From positions 1 through 51,926 of IMG/VR virus record IMGVR_UViG_3300025426_000042: a stretch of DNA of 51,926 nucleotides, one strand, 5' to 3'. Below the pieces are notes generated by a model. The model did not search any database and was not told where the DNA came from. It was given only the letters and a program-made list of their open reading frames with translations. The position numbers and the translations under genes are program-made. Below are positions 4,897-40,804 of this stretch, one piece after another. Source of the DNA: a virus. Every line of letters starts with the position of its first letter. The first letter of the stretch is position 1.

Positions 4897-4921
4897 CCTG
4901 TTCTCAGTCCTTTAATGTCTA

Positions 4922-4950
4922 ATTATAAACTACGCACATTAAAAAGTCAA
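4922..4950 (-). promoter_or_regulatory. Sigma70-type early promoter of the gp55-gp47-gp46 operon
   Basis: On the minus strand TTGACT (4945-4950) and TATAAT (4922-4927) are separated by exactly 17 bases, one mismatch from full consensus. The -10 box lies 25 bases before the gp55 ATG. It directly abuts a divergent late-type motif at 4950-4957, so early leftward and late rightward transcription diverge from the same few bases. Confidence 0.85.
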
Positions 4951-6048: not shown

Positions 6049-6051
6049 TTT

Positions 6052-6351
6052 ATGGCTACTTATAAAAATACAAGTCCTTGGTATACTACACAAGTAAAAA
6101 ATAATTATCTTGATTTATTGACTATTAGACCAGTTAGTGCAGAACCTGATGATTTTTATTATGTTATAGAAGCACAGTATGCATTAAGACCTGATCTACT
6201 AGCTTTTGATTTATACGGCACATCTCAATTGTGGTGGGTATTTGCACAACGCAATATGAATATTATAGAAGATCCTATATTAGATTTTGTTCCAGGAACT
6301 GGAATTTATATTTGTAAAAAATCTAGTTTAACTAAAGTGTTAGGATTATAA
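6052..6351 (+). CDS. 53: gp53-like baseplate wedge protein
   Basis: The 99-residue protein carries the hallmark of the gp53 baseplate wedge family: YALRPDLLAFDLYGTSQLWWVFAQRN followed by IIEDPILDFVPGTGIYI, a LysM-like fold in T4. It is about half the length of T4 gp53 (196), so it corresponds to the core domain only. In T4, gp53 locks wedges around the hub during baseplate assembly. It lies between the tube-cap gene (3 bases) and the hub gene (1 base), consistent with co-translation of baseplate parts. Confidence 0.85.
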   Translation: MATYKNTSPWYTTQVKNNYLDLLTIRPVSAEPDDFYYVIEAQYALRPDLLAFDLYGTSQLWWVFAQRNMNIIEDPILDFVPGTGIYICKKSSLTKVLGL

Positions 6352-6352
6352 C

Positions 6353-10548: not shown

Positions 10549-10983
10549 ATGTCTAGCTTATTCACAAAAACACAAATATCTTCTCCAAATATTGCACACC
10601 ATGTTAGCTCTCGTAGATATAGGGGATTTAGTACAGTAAGTCCGCATACTGAAAATTTTGCCTTGTATGATTTTGAATTAATCAAGCAAGATTTACTTAA
10701 TAATTTTTATGTGCGTCAGGGAGAACGCCTAATGAACCCTACATTTGGCACAATCATATGGGATGTTATTTTTGAACCTTTAACTGATGAATTAAAAAAT
10801 GCTGTACTACAAAATGTAAATCAAATATTCAACAGCGATCCTCGAATTCGCACAGGCAACATAGTCATAACACCATACGATACTGGGTTAGAAATTCAAT
10901 GTGAACTGATATATGTGCTGTATAACATACAACAAAAACTTCAAATGAAGTTTGATCAAGCGAACGGACTTGCCCTACAATAA
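10549..10983 (+). CDS. 25: gp25-like baseplate wedge protein
   Basis: The 144-residue protein contains the GPW/gp25 domain: DLLNNFYVRQGERLMNPTFGTIIWD, then FEPLTDELKNAVLQNV and SDPRIRTGNIVITPYDTGLEI. This matches the conserved wedge component of contractile injection systems that binds the gp6 dimer and links sheath to baseplate. Length is close to T4 gp25 (132). It follows the spike gene by 3 bases and precedes gp6, the same order as in T4 (25-6-7). Confidence 0.9.
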   Translation: MSSLFTKTQISSPNIAHHVSSRRYRGFSTVSPHTENFALYDFELIKQDLLNNFYVRQGERLMNPTFGTIIWDVIFEPLTDELKNAVLQNVNQIFNSDPRIRTGNIVITPYDTGLEIQCELIYVLYNIQQKLQMKFDQANGLALQ

Positions 10984-11033: not shown

Positions 11034-14000
11034 ATGAGCTCAACGGATAGACAAAATAATCTTTTAATTGCTGAAAACTGGCAAAAAATTTATCAGTCTT
11101 TTAAAAACGCAAACTTTCAAAGTTACGATTTTGATAATTTGCGTCGTACAATGATTGATTATATCCGTACAAATTTCCCAGAAGACTTCAACGACTACAT
11201 TGAATCAAGCGAGTACCTTGCATTGATTGATCTTATTGCCTATATTGGGCAAAGCATTGCTTTTCGTGTAGATTTAAACGCTCGTGAAAATTTCTTAGAA
11301 CTAGCAGAACGTCGTGATAGCATATTACGATTGGCACGTATGATTGGCTACAATGCTAGCAGAAATATTCCTGCCAAAGGCTTGTTAAAATTTGGTACAG
11401 TTAGTACAACTGAAAATGTAATTGACAGTAACGGCCGCAATTTATCAGGACAATATATTACTTGGAATGATCCAAGCAATGCCAATTGGTATGACCAGTT
11501 CATTAAAGTTATAAATGCTGCACTGCCGGCAACTAGTCAATTTGGTAACCCTATAGACAGCGCAACAATCTATGGAGTTCCAACAGCTCAGTATAGATTC
11601 AATGCTTCAAACACTAATGTTCCAATTTATAATTTTAATAAAACTATTTCTGGTCGTAGTATGAATTTTGAAATTACCAGTACAACATTTAGTGGAAAAA
11701 CTTACATTTATGAAGAAGCTCCTAAAATTGGAAATAAAATAGCATGTATATATAGTGATGATGGCTTTGGTGCTAGTAGTCCAGGTACAGGGTTCTTTTT
11801 TAATTTTACACAAGGCACTATGAATACTGGTGCATTTACAGTTTCTCAGCCTACTAGTAATCAACAAATAGATATTCCTACACAGAACATTAATAATACT
11901 GATGTATGGCTTTATAGTTTAGATCAAAGTACTGGCTTAGAAACAAATTTATGGACACAAGTTCCTGCTACATCTGGTAATAACATAATTTATAATAGTT
12001 TAAGTGCAAAAATTAAAAACATTTACAGCGTAATTACCAGAGCTAGTGATGCGATTAGTTTAAGTTTTAGTGATGGAACATTTGGTAATTTACCCTTAGG
12101 AAATTTTAGAACTTATTATAGAGTAAGCAATGGTTTAAATTACACAATTAATCCAGCAGATATTGTTAATATAGTAGTATCTATTCCTTATACAAGTGCA
12201 AAAAATACAGCAGAAACACTGACAATCAGTTTAAGTCTTGCTACTAGTGTTACTAATGCTGCAACAGCAGAAACAAATGCCAGCGTTAAAACTAATGCTC
12301 CACAAACGTACTATACGCAAAATCGTATGATTACTGGAGAAGACTACAATATTAGTCCGTTAAGTGCTAATCTAAATGTGGCAAAAGTACAGGCTGTTAA
12401 CAGAACTAGTAGCGGCATAAGTCGTTATTTTGACCTAACAGATCCTACTGGAAAATACAGTAAAACAACGTTATTTGCAGATGACGGTATTATCTATAAA
12501 GAAAATTATAATTCAACTACAAATTTTACTTACATCACTCAAACTGACATTCAAGGAATTATATATAATACCATTTACGATATTTTAAATACTCCTAATT
12601 TAAGAAATTTTTATTATTCAAATTATTTAGACTTTTTGAATGTCAGTCTTAACATTCAATGGAACGCAGTAACTACTGACAGTAATACTTCTAGCGGTTT
12701 TATTAGTTTAATTTCTCCTCAATCTGGTTCAAAAAATGTGCCGCTACAAGTCGGATCATTTACAGCAACAGATTTAAAATATCTTACAGTTGGTTCTATA
12801 ATAAAATTTACAGCACCTTCGGGTTATTATTTTAATACGATTACAAATAAATTAATAGCAGGCACAGCTACAGTTCCAAATTCTTCAAACTACATATGGG
12901 CAGAAGTTGTTAGTGTTGCAGATGACGGTACAGCAAATAACACTGGAGTTTTATCTAAAACAAGTCAAGGTCCAATTGTATTAAACAAAGCGATTCCTTC
13001 TCTTGCTGTTGCAACACAGATTATTCCTCAGTTTGTAACAACGATTAGTCCTACTGTCATTACTACTATGATAGATTTAATATTTGCTAATGATAGCTTT
13101 GGTTTAAGATATGATGCTACTACTCAAAGTTGGCAAATTATTTTTGCAAATAACTTAAATGTTACTAATCCGTTTAGTCTTGGTAACCAAGGCAATACTA
13201 GTAATCTTCAATTAGACTCTAGTTGGTTGTTATTGTTTACAACAAATACTGAACAATATACTATTACTACTCGCAATTTGAGATATGTATTCGAAAGTGA
13301 TAATCAAGTAACATTTTACTTTGATAGTAATACTACTATCTATGATACTATTTCTAGTAATACAATTTCAGATACTATTAAAGTTTTAAGTATAAACACA
13401 CAGCCTGATAATACTATCCCATTTACACAAGATTTAACTTGGCAAATTGTAAGTGAGTACATTGGACAAGACGGTTATATCGACCCTAAAAAACTTGTTA
13501 TAACGTTTGCTGATTCAAACGGTAATGGAATTGTTGACAATCCTCAATTATTTTTAGACATTGTTGCTCCTTCAACTAATCCGTTGGCAAAATATATTGT
13601 TGAAAGAAAATATACAATTTCAGAAGGCCAGGAAGATTATGAATATGTAATCAATGATCCAACTACTGGACCTGTACTAATATTTTCAACACAAGCTGCT
13701 GCAGGCCCCTTAACACAATATGCTGACGATACATATTTTTATTTTATAGATACAGCAACAGTTTTTAAACTAACATTATCAACAGGCAAATTAAATCCTA
13801 CATTAGATTATGAAGTTTATATAGGACGTTCAGATTTAAAATTTCAATATGTCCATAGTGCAGACTATGATAGCAGAATTGATCCAGGTGCAAGTAACAT
13901 TATAGATATCTATGTGCTAACGTCAGATTATGATTTGGCATTTAGAAAATGGGTATCTAATGGTGCAGTTGGAACAACTCCATTACCTCCTAGCAGCGAT

Positions 14001-14516
14001 CAATTAAACACATTATTAAGTCCTAATTTAAATTTAATTAAATCTATCAGTGATGAAATTATATACCATCCTGTAAATTATACATTGTTATTTGGTGCAC
14101 AAGCTGAACCTAGTTTGCAAGCAACGTTTAATGCAATGATCAATCCTTCTAGTGCTGTATCGGCCGCAGATGTACAAACAAGAATTTTACAAGCAATTAA
14201 TACATTTTTTGCATTAGAAAATTGGAATTTTGGTGATACATTTTATTTTACAGAATTAAGTACTTACGTTATGAATCAGTTAGCACCTGATTTGATTTCA
14301 TTTGTAATTGTACCAAGTCAACCAGGATTATATTTTGGAAACTTATTTGAAATTCAATGTGCAACTGATAATATATTTTTAAGTTGTGCTACAACTAGCA
14401 ATATTGTTATTGTTTCAGGACTTACTGGAACAAATTTAAAAACAATTAGCTCGACACCCACAAACAGTCTTACTAGCAATCAGTCAGTGACTACAGCTCC
14501 AAACACAGGAAAATAA
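11034..14516 (+). CDS. 6: gp6-like baseplate wedge protein
   Basis: This 1160-residue protein begins with the conserved N-terminal helical domain of marine T4-like gp6 proteins (NLRRTMIDYIRTNFPEDFNDYIESSEY, then LDLNARENFLELAERRDS-like residues near 80-100), a baseplate-J relative. T4 gp6 has 660 residues, so this version has about 500 extra, mainly beta-rich Ser/Thr/Asn residues in the second half. In T4, gp6 dimers form the iris that opens on contraction. It has its own late promoter and ends 4 bases before the giant gene, preserving the 25-6-7 order. Confidence 0.88.
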   Translation: MSSTDRQNNLLIAENWQKIYQSFKNANFQSYDFDNLRRTMIDYIRTNFPEDFNDYIESSEYLALIDLIAYIGQSIAFRVDLNARENFLELAERRDSILRLARMIGYNASRNIPAKGLLKFGTVSTTENVIDSNGRNLSGQYITWNDPSNANWYDQFIKVINAALPATSQFGNPIDSATIYGVPTAQYRFNASNTNVPIYNFNKTISGRSMNFEITSTTFSGKTYIYEEAPKIGNKIACIYSDDGFGASSPGTGFFFNFTQGTMNTGAFTVSQPTSNQQIDIPTQNINNTDVWLYSLDQSTGLETNLWTQVPATSGNNIIYNSLSAKIKNIYSVITRASDAISLSFSDGTFGNLPLGNFRTYYRVSNGLNYTINPADIVNIVVSIPYTSAKNTAETLTISLSLATSVTNAATAETNASVKTNAPQTYYTQNRMITGEDYNISPLSANLNVAKVQAVNRTSSGISRYFDLTDPTGKYSKTTLFADDGIIYKENYNSTTNFTYITQTDIQGIIYNTIYDILNTPNLRNFYYSNYLDFLNVSLNIQWNAVTTDSNTSSGFISLISPQSGSKNVPLQVGSFTATDLKYLTVGSIIKFTAPSGYYFNTITNKLIAGTATVPNSSNYIWAEVVSVADDGTANNTGVLSKTSQGPIVLNKAIPSLAVATQIIPQFVTTISPTVITTMIDLIFANDSFGLRYDATTQSWQIIFANNLNVTNPFSLGNQGNTSNLQLDSSWLLLFTTNTEQYTITTRNLRYVFESDNQVTFYFDSNTTIYDTISSNTISDTIKVLSINTQPDNTIPFTQDLTWQIVSEYIGQDGYIDPKKLVITFADSNGNGIVDNPQLFLDIVAPSTNPLAKYIVERKYTISEGQEDYEYVINDPTTGPVLIFSTQAAAGPLTQYADDTYFYFIDTATVFKLTLSTGKLNPTLDYEVYIGRSDLKFQYVHSADYDSRIDPGASNIIDIYVLTSDYDLAFRKWVSNGAVGTTPLPPSSDQLNTLLSPNLNLIKSISDEIIYHPVNYTLLFGAQAEPSLQATFNAMINPSSAVSAADVQTRILQAINTFFALENWNFGDTFYFTELSTYVMNQLAPDLISFVIVPSQPGLYFGNLFEIQCATDNIFLSCATTSNIVIVSGLTGTNLKTISSTPTNSLTSNQSVTTAPNTGK

Positions 14517-14520
14517 GTAA

Positions 14521-17500
14521 ATGGCCATTAATAATAACATTAACGGTGAAAAAGGACTTAGTGCAAATCTATTACCTAAGTTTTATCAAACACTAGCCAA
14601 CAAAAAGTTTTTACAATCGACAGTTGATCAATTATTTCAACCAGGTACGCTGACAAAAACTACAGGATATATTGGTAGAGAAAATGCTAAAGCTAGTACA
14701 GGTGCAGATGTATATGTTAAGGCGGCAGATGCGGTAAGACAAAATTATCAATTAGAGCCTGGAATAACTATAACTGATAATTTAGACAACATAACATTTT
14801 TTAAAGATTATGTTGATTACATTAATCAAATTAACGTGTTTGGCGGAAATACTACTAACCACGCACGTTTAAATAAACAAGAATTTTATTCTTGGGATCC
14901 TCATATTGATTGGGATAAGTTTGTTAATTTTCAAAATTACTACTGGTTACCTTATGGTCCTGATACTATTACTATATATGGCCCAAAAGCTACTATTAGT
15001 ACATCTTATAAAGTGTCCATTCAATCTGAAGGTGCCAACAATCAATATATTTTTACACCCGACGGAGCAACTCCAGACCCTGTATTAAAATTATACAGAG
15101 GTCAGACATATACTTTTAAAATTAATAGTCCTGGAAATCCGTTTAGTTTTAAAACAACTCGTGAAACTGGCACTAACCATCGTTATTCTTATATCGATGC
15201 AATAGATAATTATGGAGTGGAAGTAGGCACTGTTACGTTTACTGTTCCAGAGACAGCTCCTAGTTTATTATTTTATCAAAGCGAAACTGATATAAATCTC
15301 GGAGGCATTGTTGAAATATTTTCAATTGAAGAAGACACTAGCATCGATGTATCCTCTGTAATTTTAGGAAAAACTTCAATTACATTACCCGATGGTACTG
15401 TATTAAGCAACGGTATGAAAATTAAATTTGGCGGAAAAGTAACTCCTGCCGAATATGCTAACGGTCAGTTTTATGTAGAAGGCGTTGGTACAGCAATTAA
15501 ATTAATCCCTGAAACAGTATTAGAAGTTGTGAGTACTTATTCTACGAATGAGTCTGTGCCATTCGATAGTGTAGGATTTGATAAAGAACCTTGGGAAAAT
15601 GCTACAGGATATGCCGGATCTCCTGACTATATTACAATCAATAGAGCAAGTAGTGACCATAATCCATGGTCAAGATATAATCGTTGGTTCCATCAAGATG
15701 TTATTAATGCCAGTGCAGCATATAATAACAACACTCCTGTATTAGATCAAACAGCACGAGCTACAAGACCAATTATTGAATTTCAAGCAGATTTACGATT
15801 GTTTAATTTTGGTACAAAAGCTATTATAGATGTTGATATTTTAGATAACACTACAGGCAATACAAGTTTAAACAAAGATGCAATTCCAGTTTTTACAGCC
15901 ATAGAAGGTCGTTCAGGTTATAACGAGCCTACAACAGTGGCTAATGTATCTATTGCGTTGTCGCCAGGCATGCTGGTTTTATTTACGGGAGATCCTGATC
16001 CTCTTGTACAAAATAAAATTTTCCGTGTAGAATATGTAGATGTAAAACACTTAAATGGAGGAAGCAATCAGCTTCATTTGGTTGAAATAGCTAATCCAGA
16101 ATTAAATCAAGTAGTATTAGTTAAACAAGGAAAATTTCAAGGGCAAATGTTCTGGTATAACGGAACAACTTGGGTACAAGCTCAGCAAAAAACATCAGTA
16201 AATCAGACTCCGTTGTTTGATATCTTTGATAGCAACGGCGTAAGTGTAAGTGATAATACTGTTTATAACGGTAGTACGTTTGCTGGAACTCCTATATTTT
16301 CTTATAAACAAAGTTCTGGAGCCGCAGATACTGTTTTAGGTTTTCCCTTAAGTTATCAGAATGTCAATAATATAGGTGACATTGTTTTTAATTTTAATTT
16401 AGTAACTGATTCGTTTGAATATAAAAAAACGGCTATTGTTGAAACACAAAAAATTGATTCTGGATTCTTATCCAGTTTAGATTATGCAGGTAACACTAGA
16501 TATTTAAATGGCTGGCAAACTTGCGAAGTTGATACAGTTCAAGCTGCAGTAAGAATTTATAAAAATTCAGGATTGACTAATAATTTTAAAATAGATATCT
16601 ACGATGATATTAATAATTTGTCAGATCTAGTTGTTAGAATTTATATTAATGGAAAACGATTAAACCCTAGCTTATGGTCTGTAACTAACAAAGGTTTATA
16701 TAAAAATATTCGATTAGTTAATCCTATCGCATTAACAGATGTGTTAACTATTAGAGCGTTTTCTAAACAACCTATTAATGGTAACGGATATTACGAAGTA
16801 CCAGTTAACTTACAAAATAATCCATTAAATGGAGAAATTGGAGATTTTACACTAGGAGAAGTTATTAATCATGTTGATAGCATTATTGATAACTTATATC
16901 AAAATACTGTAAACTCGAATAAAAAAGAAACAGTTCAGTTCATCGGAGTGTTTCCGGGTAATAGCGATTTGCGTGATCTTGGAAATATAACTCCGTACGG
17001 AACAAAATTTGTACAACATAGCGGCCCGCTAAGTTTAGGAATTTATCACACTACATCCGAAACTAATAATATAATTAAATCTATTGAACAATCAAGAGAA
17101 GATTACAATAATTTTAAAAGAAATTTTATTAGCACCGCTACTAATTTAGGAGTAGACGGGGATCCTGTAACAATTATCAATCAAATTTTACAAAAATTAA
17201 ATGCAGCCAAGCCAAATGTTGCTCCTTACTATTTTAGTGATATGGTGCCGTACGGCGCATGTATCATAACCGATTTAACAGTAGTTGATTATAGAATTCG
17301 ACAATATCCATTAAGCACGGTATTCACATTGGATTCATTGAGTAATAAAGCAGTAGGAATTTATTTGAATGGTGTACAATTAATACATGGACAGGATTAT
17401 TCTTTTAGTGATCAAGGATTTGTTATTATTGATTCTAGTGTTAATCTTGTTAATGGTGATACAATTAGTACGTACGAATACGATAGTACAGATGGATGTT

Positions 17501-20500
17501 TTGTTCCTGCTACACCTACTAAGTTAGGAATGTGGCCTGCGTATGCTCCAAAAATTTATACAGATACTACACTTATAAATCCACAAACTGTAATCCAAGG
17601 CCACGACGGCAGTATTATTTTAGCATATGGCGATTATAGAGATGCATTATTATTAGAACTAGAAAAACGAATTTTTAATAATATTAAAGTCAAATATGAT
17701 ACTAGTATTTTTGATGTAACAGATTTTATCCCTAGTTATAATAGATCTACGGATTATAGTTTAACAGAATTTAATGAAATTTTAGCTCCTAATTTTTATA
17801 AATGGACTAGTTTGATTGGTAAAGATTTGACTACCCCGTTAAACTATGACAGAACAAATAGTTTTACATATAACTATTCTTTAAATGCCGCACCCGACGG
17901 AACAAGTTTACCGGGATACTGGAGAGGCGTGTATCGTTGGTTATTAGATACTGACCGTCCTAATATTTGTCCTTGGGAAATGCTAGGATTTAGTATTCAG
18001 CCAGCATGGTGGAATTCAGTATACGGCCCATCACCATACACTAGTAATAATTTGCCAATGTGGCAAGATATTTCAAAAGGCATTGTTAGAGAACCTAACA
18101 AGCCTGTCGCCTACCGACCTAAATTTGCAAAACCTTTCTTACTAGACCGATTACCAGTTGACGAATCTGGAAATTTAATTAGTCCACAATTCTCGGGATT
18201 AGCAAGTGGAATGATTCAGCCAAGTATTGATAATAATTTTATATTTGGCGACGGTAGTCCGGTTGAATCTGCTTGGACACGTAGTAGCTATTATTCATTT
18301 TCAATAATAATAGCTACAATCCTATTAGCTCCAGCTAAGACATTTGGTATTTTATTAGATAGATCTAGAATTTCTAGAAATATTGCCGGTCAACTTGTAT
18401 ATTCAGAAACTGGATTGCGTGTTAAACCTTCTGATATTTTGCTACCTAGTGTATATTCAAGCAACACTCGAGTACAGACAGCAGGTCTAATAAATTATAT
18501 TGTTGATTTAATTTTTAATTATATTTTTAGCAATAACGTTGCGGGATACAATTCATATGCAACCGATTTAGCAACTATGGATGTTAAATTAAGTTACAGA
18601 GTTGGTGCGTTTACAAATAAAAATCAGTTTAATTTATTATTAGAATCTAAGACTCCAAGTAGTTCAGGTAATGTATTTGTTCCTACGGAAGATTATACAG
18701 TATTCTTAAATAAATCTAGTAGCGTAGAAAAATTAGTTTATAGCGGCGTGGTAATAACAAAGCTATCAACTGGTTTTGAAGTTAAAGGTTATAGCATTAC
18801 TCAACCTTATTTTAAATATTATGCTCCAAACAACACTGGTATGTACATTAATGTCGGCGGTATATCTGAAAGTTATGTTGATTGGGCTGAAAATCAAACT
18901 TATACTACTGGTACACTAATTCAGTACGGCGGAAAATATTATAGAGCTATTTCAACAGTAGTTTCTTCTACCAGCTTTAATCCATTAGAATTTTCACCAA
19001 TATTATCTCTTCCTATATTAGGTGGCGCAAATGCCTATATACGAACTAGCTGGGACAAAACAAAACCTCTAGTTGCACCTTATGGTATAATGTTTACAAC
19101 AGTTCAAGAAGTGGTTGATTTCTTGATAGGGTACGGAGAATATTTAAAAGATCAAGGTTTTGTATTTGATGATTTTAATAATAATTTAAGTTCAGTAGCA
19201 AACTGGGAAACTAGTGCACGAGAATTTATGTTCTGGTCTACACAAAATTGGAGCTCAGGTCAAGATAAGTGGAGCAACTGGGAGCCTAATCAAACTTATT
19301 CTTACGGAAGTATAGTAAAATATGAAGGAGACTATTACAGTGCATTAACAAATATAGCATTGTCTTCGTCTTTTGACTATACTAAATGGGATTTGATGCC
19401 AGGATTAAGTAACATCGGTGCTAGTGTTATAAGTCTAAGTCCAAGTGCAAACGGTGTAAATTTTACTACAAATCTTACAGTAGTTGACAGTATAACTAAC
19501 AAATTTAATCCTTATGAGATTTTTAAAGTTGATGGTACTCCTCTAGAAGTTGCACACGTTGACAGTTATCGTCAAGGAAATTCTGTAACATATAATCCCA
19601 GAACTACCGATGGAATCTATGGTGCTGCATTTTATCTAGTACAAAACGAACATGTTGTGATTATTAATAATTCAACTATTTTTAACGATGTAATTTACAA
19701 TCTAGCCAGTGGTTACAGACAAGAACGTTTAAAAGTAAGTGGTTACATTACAAACGATTGGTACGGCGGATTAGATATTCCAGGATTTATTTTTGATGCT
19801 GCTGCTATCGAATTATGGCAACCATATCAAGATTATAATTCAGGAGATATTGTATCGTATCAGAATTATTATTATAGTGCAAATAAATTTGTTGCAGGAT
19901 CTCCTATATTTTCAGCTGCTAATTGGTCCCAGCTAGCCGGCAAGCCGATAAGTCAAATTTTGCCAAACTGGACTAATAGTGCTACACAATTTAAAGATTT
20001 CTATAGCTTAGAAGTTGATAGTTTTGATAGTGCACAACAAAAAATGGCTCAGCATTTAATAGGCTATCAAAAACGTCAGTATCTTGATAATATCATTCAA
20101 GACGATGTAAGTGAATTTAAATTCTATCAAGGTATGATTCGTGAAAAAGGTACACAAAATGTTCTTAACAAACTATTTGATGTATTAAGTTCTGATGCAG
20201 AAGAAAGTTTAACATTCTACGAAGAATGGGCATTGCGTGTAGGACAATACGGAGCTGCCAATGCGTTTGAAGATATTGAATTTATTTTAGACCAAGGTAA
20301 ATTTAACAGAAGCAATCCGCAAGCAACAGTATTAGTTAATAGTATTGATTCTAAAATAAATCCGTTTGTGATTCAACAAACTCCTAATGATGTTTATGTT
20401 AAACCATTAAGTTATAATTCAACACCGTTTCCTGTAGTAGAAAATTTTGAACCGTTTTTAAGAAGTGCAGGTTATGTTAACACATCAGATGTATTTTTGA

Positions 20501-23500
20501 GTTTAGGCGATATATCGCAACTTGAAAATCAAACTGTTAGTAATATCACACCTGGAGTTTACTACGTAATATTATCAGTAGGAACAACAGACTTTACACA
20601 AATAGGTGCAACTAGCAATACAGTAGGAGTATCATTCAAAGCATCGAGTACTGGAATTGGCACAGGATCTGTAGCTGTTGATGTTACACAATTAAACGAA
20701 GGTGCATATATTTGGTGTGCATTTGATAACACATTTGAAGTTAATAGTTGGAATGTTTATAGATTTACTGATACCGGAATTCGTGTTAATGCACTATCTT
20801 ACGATACAAATGTTTTAACAATTACTTGTCAAGATCTTATAAAATTTAATGTAGGTTCTTACGTAGGACTCATGCTAGATATTGATTCGCTTGTTACAGG
20901 CATTAATGGATTTTTTAAAATTACAAGTGTTACTCTTAATGTATTCACAGTATCTGCTACAGTAGTAGGACTAACCCCCCAGTTTAGCCATGCATCCAAT
21001 TTAGTTGTTTATAGTCTAATATCACAACGTGCTAGCTCTATCGATTATATAGACACAATATTGCCAAAAAATATTAAAGCTGGAGATTTCATCTGGACTG
21101 ACAATAGAGGGGATGATAAATGGTCTTCTTGGATATATAATCCTGTTTATAAAAAATCTTCAGTTCCAAACATAATATCTTCAAACAATTTACAGTTCGG
21201 TAGAACAATTGCAATGAATACGCAAGGAAATACTGCTGCTGTAAGTATGCGTTCTGGCCAAGTTAGTATCTACGACAAAGTTGGCAGATCGGTTGCATGG
21301 ACTCAACGTCAATACATACAATTGCCTTTTATTGCAAATAATAATGCTAATAACCTAAATGTACTTGCAACTACACTTGCTATTAGCCCAGACGGCACTT
21401 GGTTAGCTACTGGTTCTCCTTTAGCTGGATTTGTAGCAACTAGATATGTTGGAGCATACCAATCTGTCAATACTTATTTGGCAGGAGATATTGTATCATA
21501 CTTGAATATGTATTATAAAGCTGTATTTCCAGTACCTGTAAATTCAACTCCAGATACAGATTTATATTATTGGAATTCTATTTTTTATATTCCTGTAGAT
21601 TCAACAGCTAGTAATTCATCATTATCGCAACAAGGTGCTACTAGTTTATATAAAAAAGATGCTAACAATGTTTATCAGTTAGTCGATAGTATCATAAGTC
21701 CATTTCCATCAGTCGGCGAAAAATTTGGATCTAGTTTAGTATTTGGCACTGACACGTTGTTTATTGGCGCCAGCGGATTTAATAACGGAACCGGAAGAGT
21801 TTATAAATTAGTTTATAATACTGTTGAAGAATTCTATACATTTTATAATGATGTTGGTAGTTCAGGCAAGACTCTTAAAGTATTAAGTTCTAGTGGAATA
21901 GTAGCTGGACAAACAATCAATGGCGTTGGCTTTAATAAGGGACAGTTAGTTGACTCGGTGTTAACCAAATTAGTATTTTCAGCTATCATTGGATTGCCAA
22001 ACTATATTAGAGATATACAAAATAATAATATTTCATTAACAACAATTACTACAGGAACTATTGTTTCAAGTTCGGAAATTTTTTATAATACAACTGTAGT
22101 AAGTACCGGAGTGGATAATTCAGGTAGCAGCTATATCTTGGTTAGAAGCACACAAGATTTGCCGCCGACTGTATCAACTGTGACATTTAATAATGGTAGT
22201 GTGTCGTTTAGTGCTATAGTTAATGCTGTAGTCAGCGCATCTACAATTATTTTAACACAAGCACCTGACTCTACACCAGACGGAAAATTAACATTTACAA
22301 GGCTAGCATGGCAATATGATTCTACAGGAAACTTAACTGGATACGAAGAATCTAGTAATTTTGGATGTAATATTTCATTAAGTTCGGATTCAACTAAATT
22401 AATTGTGTCTGCTAGTCAGGGAATTTCTGGAAAAGTATACATTTTTACAAATACAAACAGTAGCTGGTTATCTGTACAACCACCGTTAGTTGGTTTAGAT
22501 AATAGCTTTGGTACAAGTACATCTATATCAACTGACGGCAATTTTATTGCAATAAGCAACGAATTATCAACAACTACTAAAATAAACGAACATGGTAATG
22601 TTGGTGTATATGAACTTACTAACGGACAATATGTTAAAGTACAAGATATAAAAGACTATTATCTCGACCTGGGTAGCAACTTTGGTTCCAAAGTTGCTTT
22701 CATGAACAATTCAAGTACTCTTATAATATACAGTGAAAATGCTGCCGGAGCAATTGAAACAACATTTGATGTATACTCTTCTTTATTAACAGATAGCCAG
22801 ACGGTGTATGGTACACCATATGTATCGGATCCTGCTTCTAATAAATCTCTAGCAGAAACTACTTTTGATAAAAATTCTACACAATTTAGTACCACGGTTG
22901 TTGGCAGTGGACGAATTGATGTATATGATAGATATAATGATGCATGGGTTTATAGCGAAAGCATAATAAATGAAGATCAACAATTAGATGGATTCGGTCT
23001 AGGATTTGCTGTTGGCAACAACAATATTTTTGTAGGATCTCCGTTAGCAACAGTTAAAACTAATACCAATTCTGGTATAGTATATGCGTATACTAAACCG
23101 TTAAATTCTTTAAGTTGGACACAATATAGATCGCAAATTGATGTAGTAGATATTAGTAAACTTAAAAAATCATTCTTATACAATCGAATTAATAATGAAT
23201 TAGTAACATACTTGGATGTGATTGATCCAATCCAAGGAAAAATTGCCGGCCCAGCCGACGAGGAAATAAAATTTAAAACATTTTACGATCCTGCAGTTTA
23301 TTCTTATTCAGACGGAACTGTTGGAGTAACAGTTAGCAATGGTACATATTGGTCTAATAATCAGTTAGGTCAGCTATGGTGGGATCTGAGAACAACTAAA
23401 TTTGTTACACCGTATTTTTCAGATGTTGCTTATAGAAACAATGTGTGGAATCAACTTGCACCTGGTGCTAGTGTTGATATGTACGAGTGGATTTCTACAA

Positions 23501-26500
23501 ATCTAACTCCAAGTCAATGGGATGCTCAAGCTGATACTCCTGCTGGACTAGCTTTAGGTATTAGTGGCACAAGTTTGTATGGTAATAGTGCATACACAGT
23601 TCGTCAGCGTTATAATTCGGTGACACAGAAATTTGTAAACACTTATTATTACTGGGTAAAAAATAAAACACTAGTTCCTAATGTAAACGGCAGACATATT
23701 TCTGCTCAAGCAGTATCTAATCTTATTGCTAATCCAAAAAATTCTGCATACACTTATATGGCATTACTCGGCAAAGATTCTTTTAGTCTAGTTAATGCGT
23801 ACCAATATCTTAACGATACTAAAATTGCACTGGCTGTTGAATACTGGAATACTGATAGTATACATAGAAATATACATAGCCAGTGGAAATTAATTAGTAC
23901 TGATACAATTGTTGATTTACCCCATACTATTGAACAAAAATGGATAGATAGTTTGTGCGGAGTTGATGCTGCTGGCCGACCTGTTCCTGATATTAATTTA
24001 CCTGCTAAATTAAAATACGGTATTGAAAATCGTCCACGTCAAGGTATGTTTGTTAATAGAGTCGAAGCTCTAAAAGAATTTGTAGAAGCAGCCAATATTG
24101 CATTAGCGTCAGATCAAATTGTTAAAAATTATAATTTAACTGGATTGGAATCTTACGATACAGAACCTACAACAATTACTGGCTTGTATGATACAACGTT
24201 GGATACTTCAGTAGAATTATCTTATATTAATACCGCATTATTCCAACGTCCTTCTATAATTCCAGTTATTACAAATGGCAATATTACAGGAATAACAGTA
24301 GTAAGTCCAGGCAAAGGATACTTAGTTGCACCTTACATTGATATTGTCGGTACAGGAAAAGGTGCCGTTGTCCGAGCAATTATTGATACATTAGGTAGAA
24401 TTGTAAATGCAACTGTAATATCTCCAGGTTACGGTTATGATAACACTACTACATGTACAGTTAGAGATTATAGTGTACTAGTACATAGCGATGCACAAGC
24501 CGCTGGAAACTGGAGTATATATTCTTTTGACCCAACTTATATCGATAACGCATCGGGATTAATCGCAGGCCTATGGTCTAGAATTTTAACACAAAGCTAC
24601 GATGTTAGAAATTATTGGAGTTACATTGATTGGTACGGTTCTTATACTGATTTGACAGGAAAAGTATTGTATACAGCTACTCAATTTACAGCAGCAGATC
24701 ATAGCGTACAAACTTATGCTGATTTAAATTCTATTTCAGTATCAGTTGGTGAAATTGTTAAAGTACTAACAGTTAATACTGGTGGTTGGGAACTTTTGTA
24801 CAAGTATGCTGATTCTACTAGCATAGATTGGACATTAAGTTATAGTGTTGTGGGTATACAAAACGGAACTATTCAGTTAAGCAGTAGTTTGTATCAAACT
24901 GATTTTACCGCTGTAGGATACGATGCAAGTATATACGACGGCGGAGCATTTGATGTTAAAGCTGCAACAGAGTTAAGAATAATTCTAACAACATTAAAGA
25001 ACAATATTTTTATTAATACACTAAAAAGCACTTACTTAGATTTATTCTTTAGAAGTGTTCGTTATGCACACAGCGAACAACTTTATCTTGATTGGATTTT
25101 CAAAACAAGTTTTGTTCGAGCAACACATAATGTAGGAACATTAGGTCAACCAGTTTACTATCCTGTCGATAATCTAAGTAACTTCCAAGATTATGTAAAC
25201 GAAGTCAAGCCATATAAAACTAAAATTAGAGAGTATATTAGTGATTACACAGCATTAGATACAGCAGAATCTACAGTAACAGATTTTGATTTGCCTCCAG
25301 TCTATTCAAATAATCAATTAAGTTTGATTCATACACAAGTGGTTGATGAAACAATTACTGTAGATTCAGCGCAAGTAAACACATATCCTTGGAAATTTTG
25401 GTTAGATAATGCCGGCTATAGTGTTATTGATTTGAAAATTGTCAACGGCGGATCTGGCTACATCACTGAACCGCAAATTGTTTTTTCAAGTTCTAGCGGA
25501 TCTGGTGCAACAGCAATAGCATATTTTACCAACGGTACTATTAATAGACTAATACTACTAACTTCTGGAAGCGGATATTTAACTGCTCCAACTGTAAGTA
25601 TTGTTGGCGGGTTAGGCGCTAATGGTGTAGTTGCAAAAGCAGTTGCAATAATAGGCAACGGCGTAGTAAGATCTAATCTTACTGGAATAAAGTTTGATAG
25701 ATTAACTTATAACAACTACATTACAAATATAGATGTTACAAATACATTTACTGGTTCAGGATCTTTATTACAATTTCCGTTAGAATGGTCTCCTGATATT
25801 AGGGTAGGACAGTCTTCAGTTACAATCAACGGCATACTTGTATTGAGAGAACTATACAAATTGTCAATTGTAAGTTCGACTAAATCTGGATATACAAAAT
25901 ATTCAGGAACAATAACATTTACTACACCACCATCCGCTGGATCTGTTATTGTAGTGAAGTATAAAAAAGATATTTTGTTATTAAACGCCGCAGATAGAAT
26001 TAATTTTTTCTATAATCCTGTAACAGGTGAGTTAGGAAAAGATTTAAATCAATTAATGACCGGTATAGATTACGGTGGAACTGTTGTAGGCAATCTTGGA
26101 TTTGATGCTGGTCAAGGCTGGGGAGAATTTACATACGCTGCTCAGGGTTGGGACATATTTGATCCAGCATTTAATGATTATATTGTAACAGTTGATTCTA
26201 ACACTACTTATAATTTCACATTACCTTATACTCCATCACTAGGTACAGAAATTAACGTATACTATACTGAAAGAATTTCAACATCAGTTGTATCTGACGG
26301 TGAACAAACGTTATACCCGTTTAATTTGTATCTATTCCCAGTAGAAGCAACAGTTAAGACAACAGCAGTTTCTCAAGCGCCCGCACATATCAGCACAATG
26401 ACTAGTGTTGCTAATCCAGAAATTGATTTATTTTCTATCTCTACAAATGTGCAATCTTCTTTAATTGCAATGGCAGGTATTACAGGACAATCAACTATTA

Positions 26501-29500
26501 CATTTGATACTATAACAAATATAGTTATTGGACAATATGTGTCTGGTGCTGGTGTAGTATTTGGTACAACTGTTGTTAATTATACAGAAAATGAAATAAT
26601 TTTATCCAATAATTTGTTTTTAGATGCTACTGGATCTTATACATTCTTTTCTTTAGGTAAAATCTTAACTGTTACTGACACTTCGAATATTGAAGTAGGA
26701 ATGGGAATAGTTGGAAATGGTTTTAACACACAGTATGTGACTAAAGTGCAAAATTCTACAACTTTATATATAAGTTCTCCACCTTCTTCTATTATACTAA
26801 GCGGAGAAACTGTAACATTTAGTGGAAATGTTGCAGGATCGGCAATTCTTTATTTGAATTCAGTATCTAATATAAATGTAAATGATATTGTATCTTGTGC
26901 GGTTAATTCTGTTCTTGGGTATAATACAACAGTATTGTCGATAGATACTGTAAATTCAACAGTTGAGCTAAGTCAAATATTATATTCTAGTGTAGTTAAC
27001 GGTGTTGATTTTATTTTTACTAGAGCATTGCAGCAACCGACTGAAGCAACATCTTTTCCGAATGGAACATTGTTATTAACTAATCCTGTTCCGGCTGGTA
27101 GCACACTTATTATTTCTGGATATATACCACCGACTCGCATAGATGCAGAAGATTTTGATACAAATACTGGAACGTCTCTGTCAAACCCGTATGCTATTAT
27201 GCCTTCGGTAACAATATCAAGAGTTAGTTCTCCGTATCTAACAGTTAATACATTTGCAAACGGCGACATGACTTATACAATCAATGTACCGCTTGCATAC
27301 GCTACTGAAAATGATGGTAGTATAATTGTGTTACGTCAAAGTACTAGCGACGGAACTATTGCATCAACAGATGCAGATACGTATATAACTAGCGGCGATT
27401 TAACAAATTTAAAAGGAGTCTATCTTACAGCATCGGGCATCAATGCCGATGATGTTATTATAGATGGAGATGGTTTTGTTACCCCTACAACTAGCCCTGC
27501 TCCCGAAGAAGTTGTTCCAGGACAAGTAGTGGATGCACTTGTGGTTAAAGTATATGAAAGACCTACGTCAGGTAGCGCAAAGATTGATGTTGAAAATTAT
27601 ATTGCATCGGGAAATACTGCAACTTTTAATTTAAAAGAATTTCCAAGTAGTGAACGTTCAATTATTGTTAAGGTTGACGGAACTATTAAAACATTTAACA
27701 CTGACTATACAGTAGATTATAAAAACCAAACAGTTGTACTTAATACAATTCCGCCTGCAGGACATATTGTAACTATCTTTAATATTGGTTTTGCAGGAGA
27801 AAATATTTTAGACATTGATTATTTTGTTGGTGACGGAGTAACAACTGAGTTCATTACAAAAGCTCCATGGTTAGATAGTATTTCGTCTGCGGTTTATGTT
27901 AATGGTGTTGCAAATAATGTTCAATTGTTTAAGACAGATAGTTCATATTCATTAAGCAATTTAGTTGGTATTAGATTTATCAATGTACCTACTGTAGGTT
28001 CATTAATTAATTATATCATTGTTAACGGTAATCAAAATACATTTGCAATAACTAACACAGAAACTGTTGCTACAAACGGAAATTCAGCCTATACTTTAGA
28101 GTATCCTATTGGTGATCAACTACCTAACGAACCTAACATGATAGTTCGGGTTAATCAACAAATCCTTCCAGGACCAGTATCGTTATATTTTACTATTGGC
28201 AGCAATAGATTAACATATAGTATTGATAATAATCGTGTAACTCCTTATACAGTATCTGCTGCAGACGTTGTAGTCAGTGTTGACGGTGTTATTCTAGTAG
28301 ATGGTAAAGATTATGTACTTGATTTAGGTGGAGTATCAATAAAAATTACCAGAGAAATTTATAAACAATACTCGGGTAAACAACTTGTAATTAGTGTAAA
28401 CACTGGTCAAGGATATGTATATAATCCTTCTACTAAACAGATAATATTCTCTAGACCGTATTTTGGTACAGATATTGTAGAAGTATTCAGCGCATATAAA
28501 CATGACACTTTAGATTTACAAAGAACTGCTATTACAGTTGATTCGAGTATAAATCTAACACCGGATTCTATGGAATTTAATTCTTATCAATCAATTATTG
28601 GTGGTACAATAGTTCTTGATAGAAGTGTATTAAATGAAAGATACATCTGGGTAATTAAAAACACAGTATTATTAACTCCTGGTGTTGATTATAAATTAAA
28701 TGACGATCACCTGAGTATTAAATTAACTGTTAATCCAACTATTACTGATACAGTTACATTGATAACATTTGGTAGTAACATTATTAAGTCTGGAATATCT
28801 TATATGCAGTTTAAAGATATTCTTAATCGCACTACTTATAAACGTTTGAATGCTAGTAAACGTACAACATTAGCAACTGATCTGCATTGGAATAGCCAAT
28901 CGATTGTTTTAGAAGATGCTAGTAACTTTGAACAGCCTGTACAAAACGTAAATATTGCAGGAGTTATTGAAATACGCGGAGAACGTATAGAGTACTTTGG
29001 TAAGATTGGAAATACATTGATAAACCTACGTCGAGGTACATTAGGAACTGGTGTTAATACTTTAGTTAAAGCCGGAACTCACGTACAAGACATTGGTAGA
29101 GTAGAGACTATACCATATCAAGATTCTGTTAGTACCAGTACTATTGTTTCAAACGGTACAGATACGGTGCCACTGGGATTTATTCCTAAATCAGTTAACG
29201 AAATTGAAGTTTTTGTAGGCGGTTACGATACCAGTGCTGTGTGGGCAACTAATACTGAATATACTGCGGGTACAATTGTTAATAACGGCAGCTACACATA
29301 CCGTTGTATTGTAACACACACTAGCGGAACTGTATTTGCTAATGATTCCTCATATTGGGCATTCTTTATTGGAAACATCAGACTTAAGAAAGAATCTTAT
29401 AAAATGTTTAACGTAGATGTTGCTCCTTACAGTCCTGCCGGTGATGTAACCTTTCCTGCAGACTTTTCAGTAGACGGTACAACAGCTAAACTAACATTGA

Positions 29501-29652
29501 CTAATTTATTATTAATTGGAACTCAAATCACAGTAGTAAAAACTACCGGACTAGCATGGGATAGTTCAACTAGTATCATATATGATGATAGCAAAATTGC
29601 ACAATTTTTAAAAGCTGCTCCAGGAATTTGGTACTCCGCTTATAAGAATTAA
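14521..29652 (+). CDS. Giant 5043-residue baseplate/virion structural protein (gp7 position)
   Basis: One uninterrupted 15.1-kb frame fills 29% of the window. The N-terminus (LLPKFYQTLANKKFLQSTVD, then NITFFKDYVDYINQINVFGGN and HIDWDKFVNFQNYYWLPYGP) resembles very large virion proteins of marine T4-like phages, and the position after gp6 is that of gp7 (1032 residues in T4). Repeated modules are visible: five CBM5/12-like units near residues 1455, 1587, 1766, 2313 and 4908; FG-GAP-like propeller repeats about 2225-2860; GxGY..P.I repeats at 3251-3317 and 3640-3711; and VGxxVxGxG modules near 2450 and 3980-4080. A VNEVKPYKTKIREY helix sits near 3565. It is probably a baseplate arm that also touches carbohydrate on the cell surface. 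Structural role is confident; gp7 homology is inferred from position only. Confidence 0.75.
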   Translation: MAINNNINGEKGLSANLLPKFYQTLANKKFLQSTVDQLFQPGTLTKTTGYIGRENAKASTGADVYVKAADAVRQNYQLEPGITITDNLDNITFFKDYVDYINQINVFGGNTTNHARLNKQEFYSWDPHIDWDKFVNFQNYYWLPYGPDTITIYGPKATISTSYKVSIQSEGANNQYIFTPDGATPDPVLKLYRGQTYTFKINSPGNPFSFKTTRETGTNHRYSYIDAIDNYGVEVGTVTFTVPETAPSLLFYQSETDINLGGIVEIFSIEEDTSIDVSSVILGKTSITLPDGTVLSNGMKIKFGGKVTPAEYANGQFYVEGVGTAIKLIPETVLEVVSTYSTNESVPFDSVGFDKEPWENATGYAGSPDYITINRASSDHNPWSRYNRWFHQDVINASAAYNNNTPVLDQTARATRPIIEFQADLRLFNFGTKAIIDVDILDNTTGNTSLNKDAIPVFTAIEGRSGYNEPTTVANVSIALSPGMLVLFTGDPDPLVQNKIFRVEYVDVKHLNGGSNQLHLVEIANPELNQVVLVKQGKFQGQMFWYNGTTWVQAQQKTSVNQTPLFDIFDSNGVSVSDNTVYNGSTFAGTPIFSYKQSSGAADTVLGFPLSYQNVNNIGDIVFNFNLVTDSFEYKKTAIVETQKIDSGFLSSLDYAGNTRYLNGWQTCEVDTVQAAVRIYKNSGLTNNFKIDIYDDINNLSDLVVRIYINGKRLNPSLWSVTNKGLYKNIRLVNPIALTDVLTIRAFSKQPINGNGYYEVPVNLQNNPLNGEIGDFTLGEVINHVDSIIDNLYQNTVNSNKKETVQFIGVFPGNSDLRDLGNITPYGTKFVQHSGPLSLGIYHTTSETNNIIKSIEQSREDYNNFKRNFISTATNLGVDGDPVTIINQILQKLNAAKPNVAPYYFSDMVPYGACIITDLTVVDYRIRQYPLSTVFTLDSLSNKAVGIYLNGVQLIHGQDYSFSDQGFVIIDSSVNLVNGDTISTYEYDSTDGCFVPATPTKLGMWPAYAPKIYTDTTLINPQTVIQGHDGSIILAYGDYRDALLLELEKRIFNNIKVKYDTSIFDVTDFIPSYNRSTDYSLTEFNEILAPNFYKWTSLIGKDLTTPLNYDRTNSFTYNYSLNAAPDGTSLPGYWRGVYRWLLDTDRPNICPWEMLGFSIQPAWWNSVYGPSPYTSNNLPMWQDISKGIVREPNKPVAYRPKFAKPFLLDRLPVDESGNLISPQFSGLASGMIQPSIDNNFIFGDGSPVESAWTRSSYYSFSIIIATILLAPAKTFGILLDRSRISRNIAGQLVYSETGLRVKPSDILLPSVYSSNTRVQTAGLINYIVDLIFNYIFSNNVAGYNSYATDLATMDVKLSYRVGAFTNKNQFNLLLESKTPSSSGNVFVPTEDYTVFLNKSSSVEKLVYSGVVITKLSTGFEVKGYSITQPYFKYYAPNNTGMYINVGGISESYVDWAENQTYTTGTLIQYGGKYYRAISTVVSSTSFNPLEFSPILSLPILGGANAYIRTSWDKTKPLVAPYGIMFTTVQEVVDFLIGYGEYLKDQGFVFDDFNNNLSSVANWETSAREFMFWSTQNWSSGQDKWSNWEPNQTYSYGSIVKYEGDYYSALTNIALSSSFDYTKWDLMPGLSNIGASVISLSPSANGVNFTTNLTVVDSITNKFNPYEIFKVDGTPLEVAHVDSYRQGNSVTYNPRTTDGIYGAAFYLVQNEHVVIINNSTIFNDVIYNLASGYRQERLKVSGYITNDWYGGLDIPGFIFDAAAIELWQPYQDYNSGDIVSYQNYYYSANKFVAGSPIFSAANWSQLAGKPISQILPNWTNSATQFKDFYSLEVDSFDSAQQKMAQHLIGYQKRQYLDNIIQDDVSEFKFYQGMIREKGTQNVLNKLFDVLSSDAEESLTFYEEWALRVGQYGAANAFEDIEFILDQGKFNRSNPQATVLVNSIDSKINPFVIQQTPNDVYVKPLSYNSTPFPVVENFEPFLRSAGYVNTSDVFLSLGDISQLENQTVSNITPGVYYVILSVGTTDFTQIGATSNTVGVSFKASSTGIGTGSVAVDVTQLNEGAYIWCAFDNTFEVNSWNVYRFTDTGIRVNALSYDTNVLTITCQDLIKFNVGSYVGLMLDIDSLVTGINGFFKITSVTLNVFTVSATVVGLTPQFSHASNLVVYSLISQRASSIDYIDTILPKNIKAGDFIWTDNRGDDKWSSWIYNPVYKKSSVPNIISSNNLQFGRTIAMNTQGNTAAVSMRSGQVSIYDKVGRSVAWTQRQYIQLPFIANNNANNLNVLATTLAISPDGTWLATGSPLAGFVATRYVGAYQSVNTYLAGDIVSYLNMYYKAVFPVPVNSTPDTDLYYWNSIFYIPVDSTASNSSLSQQGATSLYKKDANNVYQLVDSIISPFPSVGEKFGSSLVFGTDTLFIGASGFNNGTGRVYKLVYNTVEEFYTFYNDVGSSGKTLKVLSSSGIVAGQTINGVGFNKGQLVDSVLTKLVFSAIIGLPNYIRDIQNNNISLTTITTGTIVSSSEIFYNTTVVSTGVDNSGSSYILVRSTQDLPPTVSTVTFNNGSVSFSAIVNAVVSASTIILTQAPDSTPDGKLTFTRLAWQYDSTGNLTGYEESSNFGCNISLSSDSTKLIVSASQGISGKVYIFTNTNSSWLSVQPPLVGLDNSFGTSTSISTDGNFIAISNELSTTTKINEHGNVGVYELTNGQYVKVQDIKDYYLDLGSNFGSKVAFMNNSSTLIIYSENAAGAIETTFDVYSSLLTDSQTVYGTPYVSDPASNKSLAETTFDKNSTQFSTTVVGSGRIDVYDRYNDAWVYSESIINEDQQLDGFGLGFAVGNNNIFVGSPLATVKTNTNSGIVYAYTKPLNSLSWTQYRSQIDVVDISKLKKSFLYNRINNELVTYLDVIDPIQGKIAGPADEEIKFKTFYDPAVYSYSDGTVGVTVSNGTYWSNNQLGQLWWDLRTTKFVTPYFSDVAYRNNVWNQLAPGASVDMYEWISTNLTPSQWDAQADTPAGLALGISGTSLYGNSAYTVRQRYNSVTQKFVNTYYYWVKNKTLVPNVNGRHISAQAVSNLIANPKNSAYTYMALLGKDSFSLVNAYQYLNDTKIALAVEYWNTDSIHRNIHSQWKLISTDTIVDLPHTIEQKWIDSLCGVDAAGRPVPDINLPAKLKYGIENRPRQGMFVNRVEALKEFVEAANIALASDQIVKNYNLTGLESYDTEPTTITGLYDTTLDTSVELSYINTALFQRPSIIPVITNGNITGITVVSPGKGYLVAPYIDIVGTGKGAVVRAIIDTLGRIVNATVISPGYGYDNTTTCTVRDYSVLVHSDAQAAGNWSIYSFDPTYIDNASGLIAGLWSRILTQSYDVRNYWSYIDWYGSYTDLTGKVLYTATQFTAADHSVQTYADLNSISVSVGEIVKVLTVNTGGWELLYKYADSTSIDWTLSYSVVGIQNGTIQLSSSLYQTDFTAVGYDASIYDGGAFDVKAATELRIILTTLKNNIFINTLKSTYLDLFFRSVRYAHSEQLYLDWIFKTSFVRATHNVGTLGQPVYYPVDNLSNFQDYVNEVKPYKTKIREYISDYTALDTAESTVTDFDLPPVYSNNQLSLIHTQVVDETITVDSAQVNTYPWKFWLDNAGYSVIDLKIVNGGSGYITEPQIVFSSSSGSGATAIAYFTNGTINRLILLTSGSGYLTAPTVSIVGGLGANGVVAKAVAIIGNGVVRSNLTGIKFDRLTYNNYITNIDVTNTFTGSGSLLQFPLEWSPDIRVGQSSVTINGILVLRELYKLSIVSSTKSGYTKYSGTITFTTPPSAGSVIVVKYKKDILLLNAADRINFFYNPVTGELGKDLNQLMTGIDYGGTVVGNLGFDAGQGWGEFTYAAQGWDIFDPAFNDYIVTVDSNTTYNFTLPYTPSLGTEINVYYTERISTSVVSDGEQTLYPFNLYLFPVEATVKTTAVSQAPAHISTMTSVANPEIDLFSISTNVQSSLIAMAGITGQSTITFDTITNIVIGQYVSGAGVVFGTTVVNYTENEIILSNNLFLDATGSYTFFSLGKILTVTDTSNIEVGMGIVGNGFNTQYVTKVQNSTTLYISSPPSSIILSGETVTFSGNVAGSAILYLNSVSNINVNDIVSCAVNSVLGYNTTVLSIDTVNSTVELSQILYSSVVNGVDFIFTRALQQPTEATSFPNGTLLLTNPVPAGSTLIISGYIPPTRIDAEDFDTNTGTSLSNPYAIMPSVTISRVSSPYLTVNTFANGDMTYTINVPLAYATENDGSIIVLRQSTSDGTIASTDADTYITSGDLTNLKGVYLTASGINADDVIIDGDGFVTPTTSPAPEEVVPGQVVDALVVKVYERPTSGSAKIDVENYIASGNTATFNLKEFPSSERSIIVKVDGTIKTFNTDYTVDYKNQTVVLNTIPPAGHIVTIFNIGFAGENILDIDYFVGDGVTTEFITKAPWLDSISSAVYVNGVANNVQLFKTDSSYSLSNLVGIRFINVPTVGSLINYIIVNGNQNTFAITNTETVATNGNSAYTLEYPIGDQLPNEPNMIVRVNQQILPGPVSLYFTIGSNRLTYSIDNNRVTPYTVSAADVVVSVDGVILVDGKDYVLDLGGVSIKITREIYKQYSGKQLVISVNTGQGYVYNPSTKQIIFSRPYFGTDIVEVFSAYKHDTLDLQRTAITVDSSINLTPDSMEFNSYQSIIGGTIVLDRSVLNERYIWVIKNTVLLTPGVDYKLNDDHLSIKLTVNPTITDTVTLITFGSNIIKSGISYMQFKDILNRTTYKRLNASKRTTLATDLHWNSQSIVLEDASNFEQPVQNVNIAGVIEIRGERIEYFGKIGNTLINLRRGTLGTGVNTLVKAGTHVQDIGRVETIPYQDSVSTSTIVSNGTDTVPLGFIPKSVNEIEVFVGGYDTSAVWATNTEYTAGTIVNNGSYTYRCIVTHTSGTVFANDSSYWAFFIGNIRLKKESYKMFNVDVAPYSPAGDVTFPADFSVDGTTAKLTLTNLLLIGTQITVVKTTGLAWDSSTSIIYDDSKIAQFLKAAPGIWYSAYKN

Positions 29653-40453: not shown

Positions 40454-40804
40454 ATGGACGAAAGAATCGAAAAAGCCTTTGGTGTTGCTAACTACATGGC
40501 TACATTATCAAATCAAAGACGTATTATTTTAGAAGAATACAATCAAAATTTGATACACTATATCAATGGTGCAACATTTAAAATTACCTACGAATTAATT
40601 AGTTTTGTAAAAACACTAGTTGATTTGGGTAAAACAGAAAATATTGTACTTGTCGACAGCAATAATTTTCCAGTACTAATTGATAATTTAGAAGATTTTC
40701 TAAACAGTATTGTATCAACATATTTAGAAACTGTGTCTACGTATGCTGACAAGTTTAACGAAATAAAAGTTAAACGTAAGATTGCAGACATAGTGGATCT
40801 ATGA
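40454..40804 (+). CDS. Small helical conserved phage protein, function unknown
   Basis: The 116-residue protein is predicted mostly alpha-helical (KAFGVANYMATLSNQRRIILEEYNQ, then FKITYELISFVKTLVDLG), with no cysteine, signal peptide or catalytic motif. I recognise the type from marine T4-like phages but know no function. It follows a sigma70-type promoter and overlaps the first glycosyltransferase-like gene by 4 bases, so it is the leader gene of that cluster. Confidence 0.75.
   Translation: MDERIEKAFGVANYMATLSNQRRIILEEYNQNLIHYINGATFKITYELISFVKTLVDLGKTENIVLVDSNNFPVLIDNLEDFLNSIVSTYLETVSTYADKFNEIKVKRKIADIVDL

Follow-up and report, generated by a model that had tools for sequence, protein, structure and literature searches.

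This locus raises the question of what a single open reading frame of 15.1 kb encodes in a phage genome, and whether a chain of that size has a place in a virion. In the window, meaning the whole analyzed stretch of 51,926 nucleotides (an IMG/VR virus record), the frame opens with ATG at 14521 and closes with the stop codon ending at 29652, with 5043 codons and zero internal stops. An earlier sequence-only reading had reported one frame without stop or frameshift, and its coordinates and length were exact. The start lies 4 nt past the gp6 stop (14516) and is preceded by an AGGA at a distance of about 11 nt. Compared with the relatives L167 (88.5% amino acid identity) and L090 (83.4%), with 5033–5040 codons aligned, dN/dS for the whole frame was 0.079 and 0.092, respectively, and each sub-block tested gave 0.025–0.184. 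Purifying selection was strongest in the conserved core blocks. The fastest blocks, aa 1961–2880 and 3951–4260 (dN/dS about 0.10–0.18), fit the expectation for exposed parts. Close relatives also keep this frame open and dN/dS is low, so chance does not explain it. The gene is real and uninterrupted, purifying selection on it is strong throughout, and it almost certainly encodes a structural protein of a jumbo phage tail baseplate.

Complete relatives carry a single intact frame in all but one contig. In the 345,369-bp contig IMGVR_UViG_3300027708_000012 (L095), clustered base changes introduce an in-frame TAG at 6824–6826, leaving two open stretches, one of 1737 and one of 3247 codons. This relative is otherwise near-identical, and its close relatives L092–L094 are intact at the site; the TAG could be an assembly error or a genuine broken copy.

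The PHROG 10938 profile ('virion structural protein') matched the protein in two halves, with E-values of 1.3e-244 and 4.7e-79. In IMG/VR, 47 complete, non-redundant homologous ORFs encode 4433–5423 aa, and the homologs in eight isolated jumbo phages measure 3138–4555 aa. Relatives were encoded on 333 IMG/VR stretches for the N-terminal quarter and on 497 for a middle block. Relatives lie on contigs as long as 345–356 kb (L095, L146), which makes a jumbo phage of similar size the most likely source. The protein had been described as very large even for phage structural proteins. Large it is, but the comparison of homolog lengths, which had been proposed as a check, showed that the IMG/VR range is the rule in the clade. 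Its size is ordinary there, since the family regularly spans 3100–5400 aa and the slot behind gp6 reaches 8573 aa in cyanophages (Table 1). The protein is thus a large new member of an already known family of giant baseplate proteins. Searches of bacterial and archaeal genomes returned no relatives, so a prophage context is not indicated. Literature on very large phage proteins yielded nothing on this family.

Table 1. Features of the giant protein and its neighborhood in the window, and lengths of proteins in the same family or slot
Feature	Residues or length	Window position	Strand	Remark
gp53-position baseplate wedge subunit		6052–6351	+	
Baseplate hub gp5/tail lysozyme homolog		8656–10545	+	
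Baseplate wedge subunit gp25		10549–10983	+	
Baseplate wedge subunit gp6	1160 aa	11034–14516	+	PHROG 10646, E 1.6e-296; immediately upstream of giant
Giant ORF	5043 aa	14521–29652	+	554 kDa, pI 4.7; probable gp7-slot baseplate wedge protein, PHROG 10938 family
N-terminal conserved block	1–170	14521–15030	+	common to jumbo-phage homologs
Separate module	165–275	15013–15345	+	also in cyanophage proteins annotated gp9, 29–39% identity
Conserved core	351–880	15571–17160	+	
T7-tail-fiber-like module	925–990	17293–17490	+	resembles modules of the C-terminal third
Conserved core	1010–1449	17548–18867	+	
CBM5/12-like module 1	1450–1500	18868–19020	+	Pfam PF02839, internal copies, modeled fold
CBM5/12-like module 2	1585–1629	19273–19407	+	
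CBM5/12-like module 3	1765–1809	19813–19947	+	
Best match to cyanophage gp7-slot motif FYxxKGTxxSxxFxF	1860–1901	20098–20223	+	
Variable FG-GAP repeat region	2221–2880	21181–23160	+	beta-propeller-like
Weak CBM5/12-like copy	2313–2352	21457–21576	+	inside propeller region
Conserved core	2881–3240	23161–24240	+	
GY module 1	3243–3314	24247–24462	+	many copies in cyanophage gp7-slot giants
Conserved core	3420–3600	24778–25320	+	
GY module 2	3634–3719	25420–25677	+	AlphaFold barrel
Module weakly similar to fiber-type modules	3740–3822	25738–25986	+	
Three short repeated modules	3989–4148	26485–26964	+	least conserved part
Four T7-tail-fiber-like modules	4360–4755	27598–28785	+	4360–4425, 4440–4510, 4561–4640, 4690–4755
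Small module	4775–4860	28843–29100	+	common to N-terminus of cyanophage gp7-slot giants, hhalign E 8e-6
CBM5/12-like module near C-terminus	4906–4942	29236–29346	+	
PHROG 11259 protein	203 aa	29708–30319	+	downstream of giant
Homolog, RAS14	3138 aa			
Homolog, RaK2 ORF070	3326 aa			
Homolog, GAP32_230	3341 aa			as annotated
Homolog, Vibrio 2.275.O	3771 aa			
Homolog, SCTP-2 gp140	3807 aa			
Homolog, PA5oct gp355	3857 aa			
Homolog, Atu_ph07 gp180	4449 aa			
Homolog, Phosso	4555 aa			
Homolog, CBB_236				PHROG 10938 family member
Cyanophage S-CAM1	3032 aa			gene directly after gp6
Cyanophage S-PM2	3048 aa			gene directly after gp6
Cyanophage S-RSM4	3515 aa			gene directly after gp6
Cyanophage ACG-2014f	4225 aa			gene directly after gp6
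Cyanophage P-HM1	4446 aa			gene directly after gp6; annotated gp7 'baseplate wedge initiator'
Cyanophage S-CAM8	6167 aa			gene directly after gp6; gp9-type gene next
Cyanophage P-RSM6	8573 aa			gene directly after gp6; one open frame

On the plus strand of the window the order is virion protein, gp53, virion protein X, gp5, gp25, gp6 and the giant, followed by the PHROG 11259 protein and then collar/fiber-like proteins. The minus strand carries SbcC/SbcD-like gp46/47 and the late sigma factor gp55. Nearly the same order (gp46/47/55 and gp53-position–X–gp5–gp25–gp6–giant–PHROG 11259) was found in PA5oct, a Pseudomonas jumbo phage of 287 kb. The gp53–X–gp5–gp25–gp6–giant order, with small insertions, is kept in both PA5oct and CBB, and gp6 directly precedes the giant in Atu_ph07, Phosso, RaK2 and GAP32. 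A PHROG 11259 homolog lies close behind the giant in PA5oct, Phosso and SCTP-2, and elsewhere in RaK2-like phages. Most cyanophages examined keep the order gp25–gp6–giant–gp8, and T4 gp7 likewise stands immediately after gp6. By gene order, the protein occupies the position that T4 gives to its baseplate wedge initiator, gp7. The T4 positional equivalent had been put at about 1000 residues, which is correct if that protein was meant (gp7 has 1032 aa and is five times shorter than the giant).

Other features of the neighborhood were recorded alongside. The gp6 in the window (11034–14516) has 1160 aa versus 660 in T4, and the gp6-position gene of Vibrio phage 2.275.O is annotated with CBM5/12; module accretion is therefore not confined to the giant. 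In SCTP-2 (L004:4609–13899) the gp6-position gene itself encodes 3096 aa and adjoins the giant of 3807 aa; it is possibly gp6 fused with other baseplate parts. PHROGs 12050, 11190 and 10938 (window 4981–8656 and 14521–29652) are filed under 'head and packaging', a category that is probably wrong because their genes lie among gp53, gp5, gp25 and gp6. On the minus strand, a SegE-type GIY-YIG homing endonuclease gene (563–1000) adjoins the gp46/47 genes, and a ThyX thymidylate synthase gene (44662–45339) lies downstream. A 1036-aa protein (36086–39196) had no PHROG or Pfam matches. It shows long proline runs (PPPPAPPPPA...) between domains that by eye seem Ig-type, and its gene contains the DNA repeat (CCACCACCACCTGCG)n at 37025–37119. 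Past the fiber genes, several ORFs of 210–300 aa at 40801–43968 gave no family matches, some of them glycosyltransferase-like by eye; a 2OG-Fe(II) oxygenase (39196–39783) precedes them.

Phage tail proteins assemble in the host cytoplasm, so export of the protein, which had been regarded as unclear, is no issue. That the giant is a virion protein is supported through homologs detected by virion mass spectrometry. PA5oct gp355 was detected in the virion, its record carrying the note 'ESI-MS/MS'. CBB_236, whose gene adjoins that of the baseplate wedge protein CBB_237, was identified in virions by 21 unique peptides with 7.72% coverage (PMC5259590). The 381.88-kDa phAPEC6 gp245, taken as a homolog by its size and its neighbor, baseplate wedge gp244, was identified by 17 unique peptides with 7.6% coverage (PMC7247149). 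A tail map of phAPEC6 has been published at about 25 Å.

When the giant family was aligned with T4 gp7 by hhalign, all blocks gave E-values of 0.05 or worse and probabilities of about 1% or less. A link was found by way of the cyanophages. The N-terminal part of their gp7-slot proteins matched T4 gp7 residues 730–822 (hhalign E 2.2e-5, probability 77), the match being centered on DFYxxKGTxxSxxFxF. A 42-column profile from the cyanophage sequences was slid along the giant family over about 5000 positions. Its maximum fell at aa 1860–1901 (the FYQGMIREKGTQNVLNKLFDVL region), the top of all positions with a z of 6.3, and 0 of 300 column-shuffled profiles reached this score. A profile from T4 gp7 only did not single out aa 1860. 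The position held the single best match in 18 of 56 members, including Atu_ph07 and SCTP-2, a count in which the members are related and not independent. This transitive link, together with the fixed place after gp6, makes the gp7-equivalent reading likely: the giant is probably equivalent to gp7 in position and function, as distinct from a proven homolog of T4 gp7. The earlier assignment of a T4 positional equivalent therefore holds on synteny and on the transitive motif, but not on direct similarity.

The FYxxKGT-type motif is common to the window giant and several cyanophage gp7-slot giants, which also directly follow gp6 and have GY and small C-terminal-type modules in common with it. Nevertheless, the cores cannot be aligned end to end, and the motif lies near the N-terminus (aa ~190–215) in cyanophages versus aa 1860 here. 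Direct comparison of the family with T4 gp5–gp12 and wac gave nothing convincing; one tblastn hit, T4 gp12 against aa ~1604–1729 (E 0.001, 25%), was taken as chance.

Five blocks (aa 1–170, 351–880, 1010–1960, 2880–3240 and 3420–3600) make up the conserved core, about 2,200 residues with the embedded CBM modules included, or nearly half of the protein. Identity to the named jumbo homologs was 22–31% over aa 1000–2000, and the core is conserved to the same degree among phages with very different hosts. In the jumbo homologs this core is about 25–30% identical, and the aligned part covers up to 74% of the N-terminal half. AlphaFold modeled aa 1000–2000 poorly (mean pLDDT 59) and aa 2866–3726 moderately well (mean pLDDT 71). 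Foldseek/VIA-align with the latter model found no whole-fold match. PDB sequence searches with profiles of all blocks gave convincing E-values only for CBM-bearing chitinases and deacetylases, and most BFVD matches either belonged to this family or were phage proteins with single modules in common.

The CBM5/12 modules were recognized by Pfam (PF02839, E 4e-12, above the curated cut-off) and by their modeled fold (Z ~7, 1.3 Å over 45 residues). Module 1 comes near the CBM of a chitin deacetylase (Z ~7), and module 2 resembles modules in the tail structures of phages 7-7-1 and Milano. FG-GAP_2 scored 19.4 bits in the window protein, below the curated cut-off of 23; of 22 family members, 15 gave a match (best E 6e-14). 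This long region is largely missing from RaK2 and GAP32. The barrel predicted for GY module 2 resembles a T4 gp18 sheath domain (Z 5.8 over 75 residues), its best structural match. The module at aa 165–275 is mostly missing from the named jumbo homologs; the cyanophage gp9 proteins that carry it are annotated 'baseplate wedge tail fiber connector'. A resemblance to cupredoxins, suggested by eye, received no support from Pfam.

Length varies locally. Members have between <287 and 1529 aa opposite aa 1941–2890 of the giant, and 455–1784 aa opposite aa 3720–5043. IMG/VR members have three to six CBM copies (mostly four or five), five T7-type and two GY copies; RaK2 has zero, two and zero, respectively. 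The giant is longer than the named jumbo homologs, with four or five CBM-like modules versus 0–2 and five T7-fiber-like modules versus 0–3. As the variation is concentrated in these two stretches and module counts rise, the extra length is attributed to modules accreted on a conserved core.

The module content might suggest that the giant is a large peripheral baseplate or tail-fiber protein, that is, an adhesin whose gene was inserted after gp6, with another protein as wedge initiator. Its richness in Thr, Ser and Asn, its T7-fiber-like, CBM and FG-GAP modules and the lack of significant direct similarity to T4 gp7 are consistent with this. Such an origin is nevertheless unlikely. Nearly half of the protein is a core conserved across very different hosts, selection is strongest in that core, unlike in a variable adhesin, among the phages examined the gene adjoins gp6, and a significant motif link runs through the cyanophages to gp7. 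A tape-measure-type protein, whose length sets that of the tail, would account for the extreme length, its one attraction, and is highly improbable. The giant is modular, with CBM, propeller-like and fiber-like domains, it lies after gp6, gained and lost modules spread its family over 3138–5423 aa, and in Atu_ph07 another protein, gp701, is annotated as the tape measure (PMC6102473).

The sequence-only reading had also suggested that the product may be processed. It would then be cut, like a polyprotein, into several virion proteins, and the particle would contain no 554-kDa chain. The 7.6–7.7% coverage of the homologs is too low to demonstrate one full-length chain. Direct evidence of cleavage was not found, however, and the frame is intact in the complete relatives, one contig excepted. 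The RaK2 virion proteins discussed by its authors ran near their predicted masses, the giant homolog not being singled out among them (PMC3622015). Processing is accordingly judged improbable, more so than the adhesin and less so than the tape measure.

The best explanation of the whole is probably a single-chain, gp7-type wedge scaffold with sugar-binding and fiber-type modules. The giant would be the gp7-slot wedge protein of a T4-related jumbo phage, with RaK2, PA5oct and Atu_ph07 among its relatives, enlarged by module accretion. Wedge formation in T4 begins when gp7 brings two gp6 subunits together, and gp25 and gp53 complete it. Homologs of gp6, gp25 and gp53 are present in the window. 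The giant core would most likely nucleate one wedge in the same way, with the product of the gp6 gene just before it. At T4 stoichiometry there would be six copies per virion, or about 3.3 MDa of added baseplate mass. Inserted modules and those at the C-terminus would most likely project from the wedge as fiber docking sites or weak sugar-binding surfaces. The CBM and fiber-type modules would sit at the baseplate rim, contacting sugars and docking the fiber proteins encoded downstream.

One unprocessed giant chain would thus do work that T4 splits among several peripheral proteins. T4 has separate gp8–gp12 proteins downstream of gp7, and most cyanophages examined have a separate gp8, whereas no gp8 homolog was recognized downstream of the giant within the window. 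Cyanophage gp8 sequences matched the giant only at the GY module, which is widespread and promiscuous. It is possible on these grounds that the giant has absorbed the roles of gp8 and gp10. A broader proposal is tentative and, on balance, doubtful: in T4-related phages the gp7 slot may be an open-ended mega-scaffold, in which the initiator absorbs gp8-, gp9- and gp10-like docking and the first sugar contact. Each virion would then carry six CBM-studded arms of about 0.55 MDa, and host range would evolve by gain and loss of modules.

A 15-kb structural gene is normal in a large and little-described group of jumbo phages from the environment. The giant links three sets of virion structural proteins, those of jumbo phages, of cyanophages and T4 gp7, whose database labels, 'head and packaging' for example, are unspecific. 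Should the wedge reading hold, hundreds of records could be better annotated, and the insertable modules would be candidates for receptor contacts.
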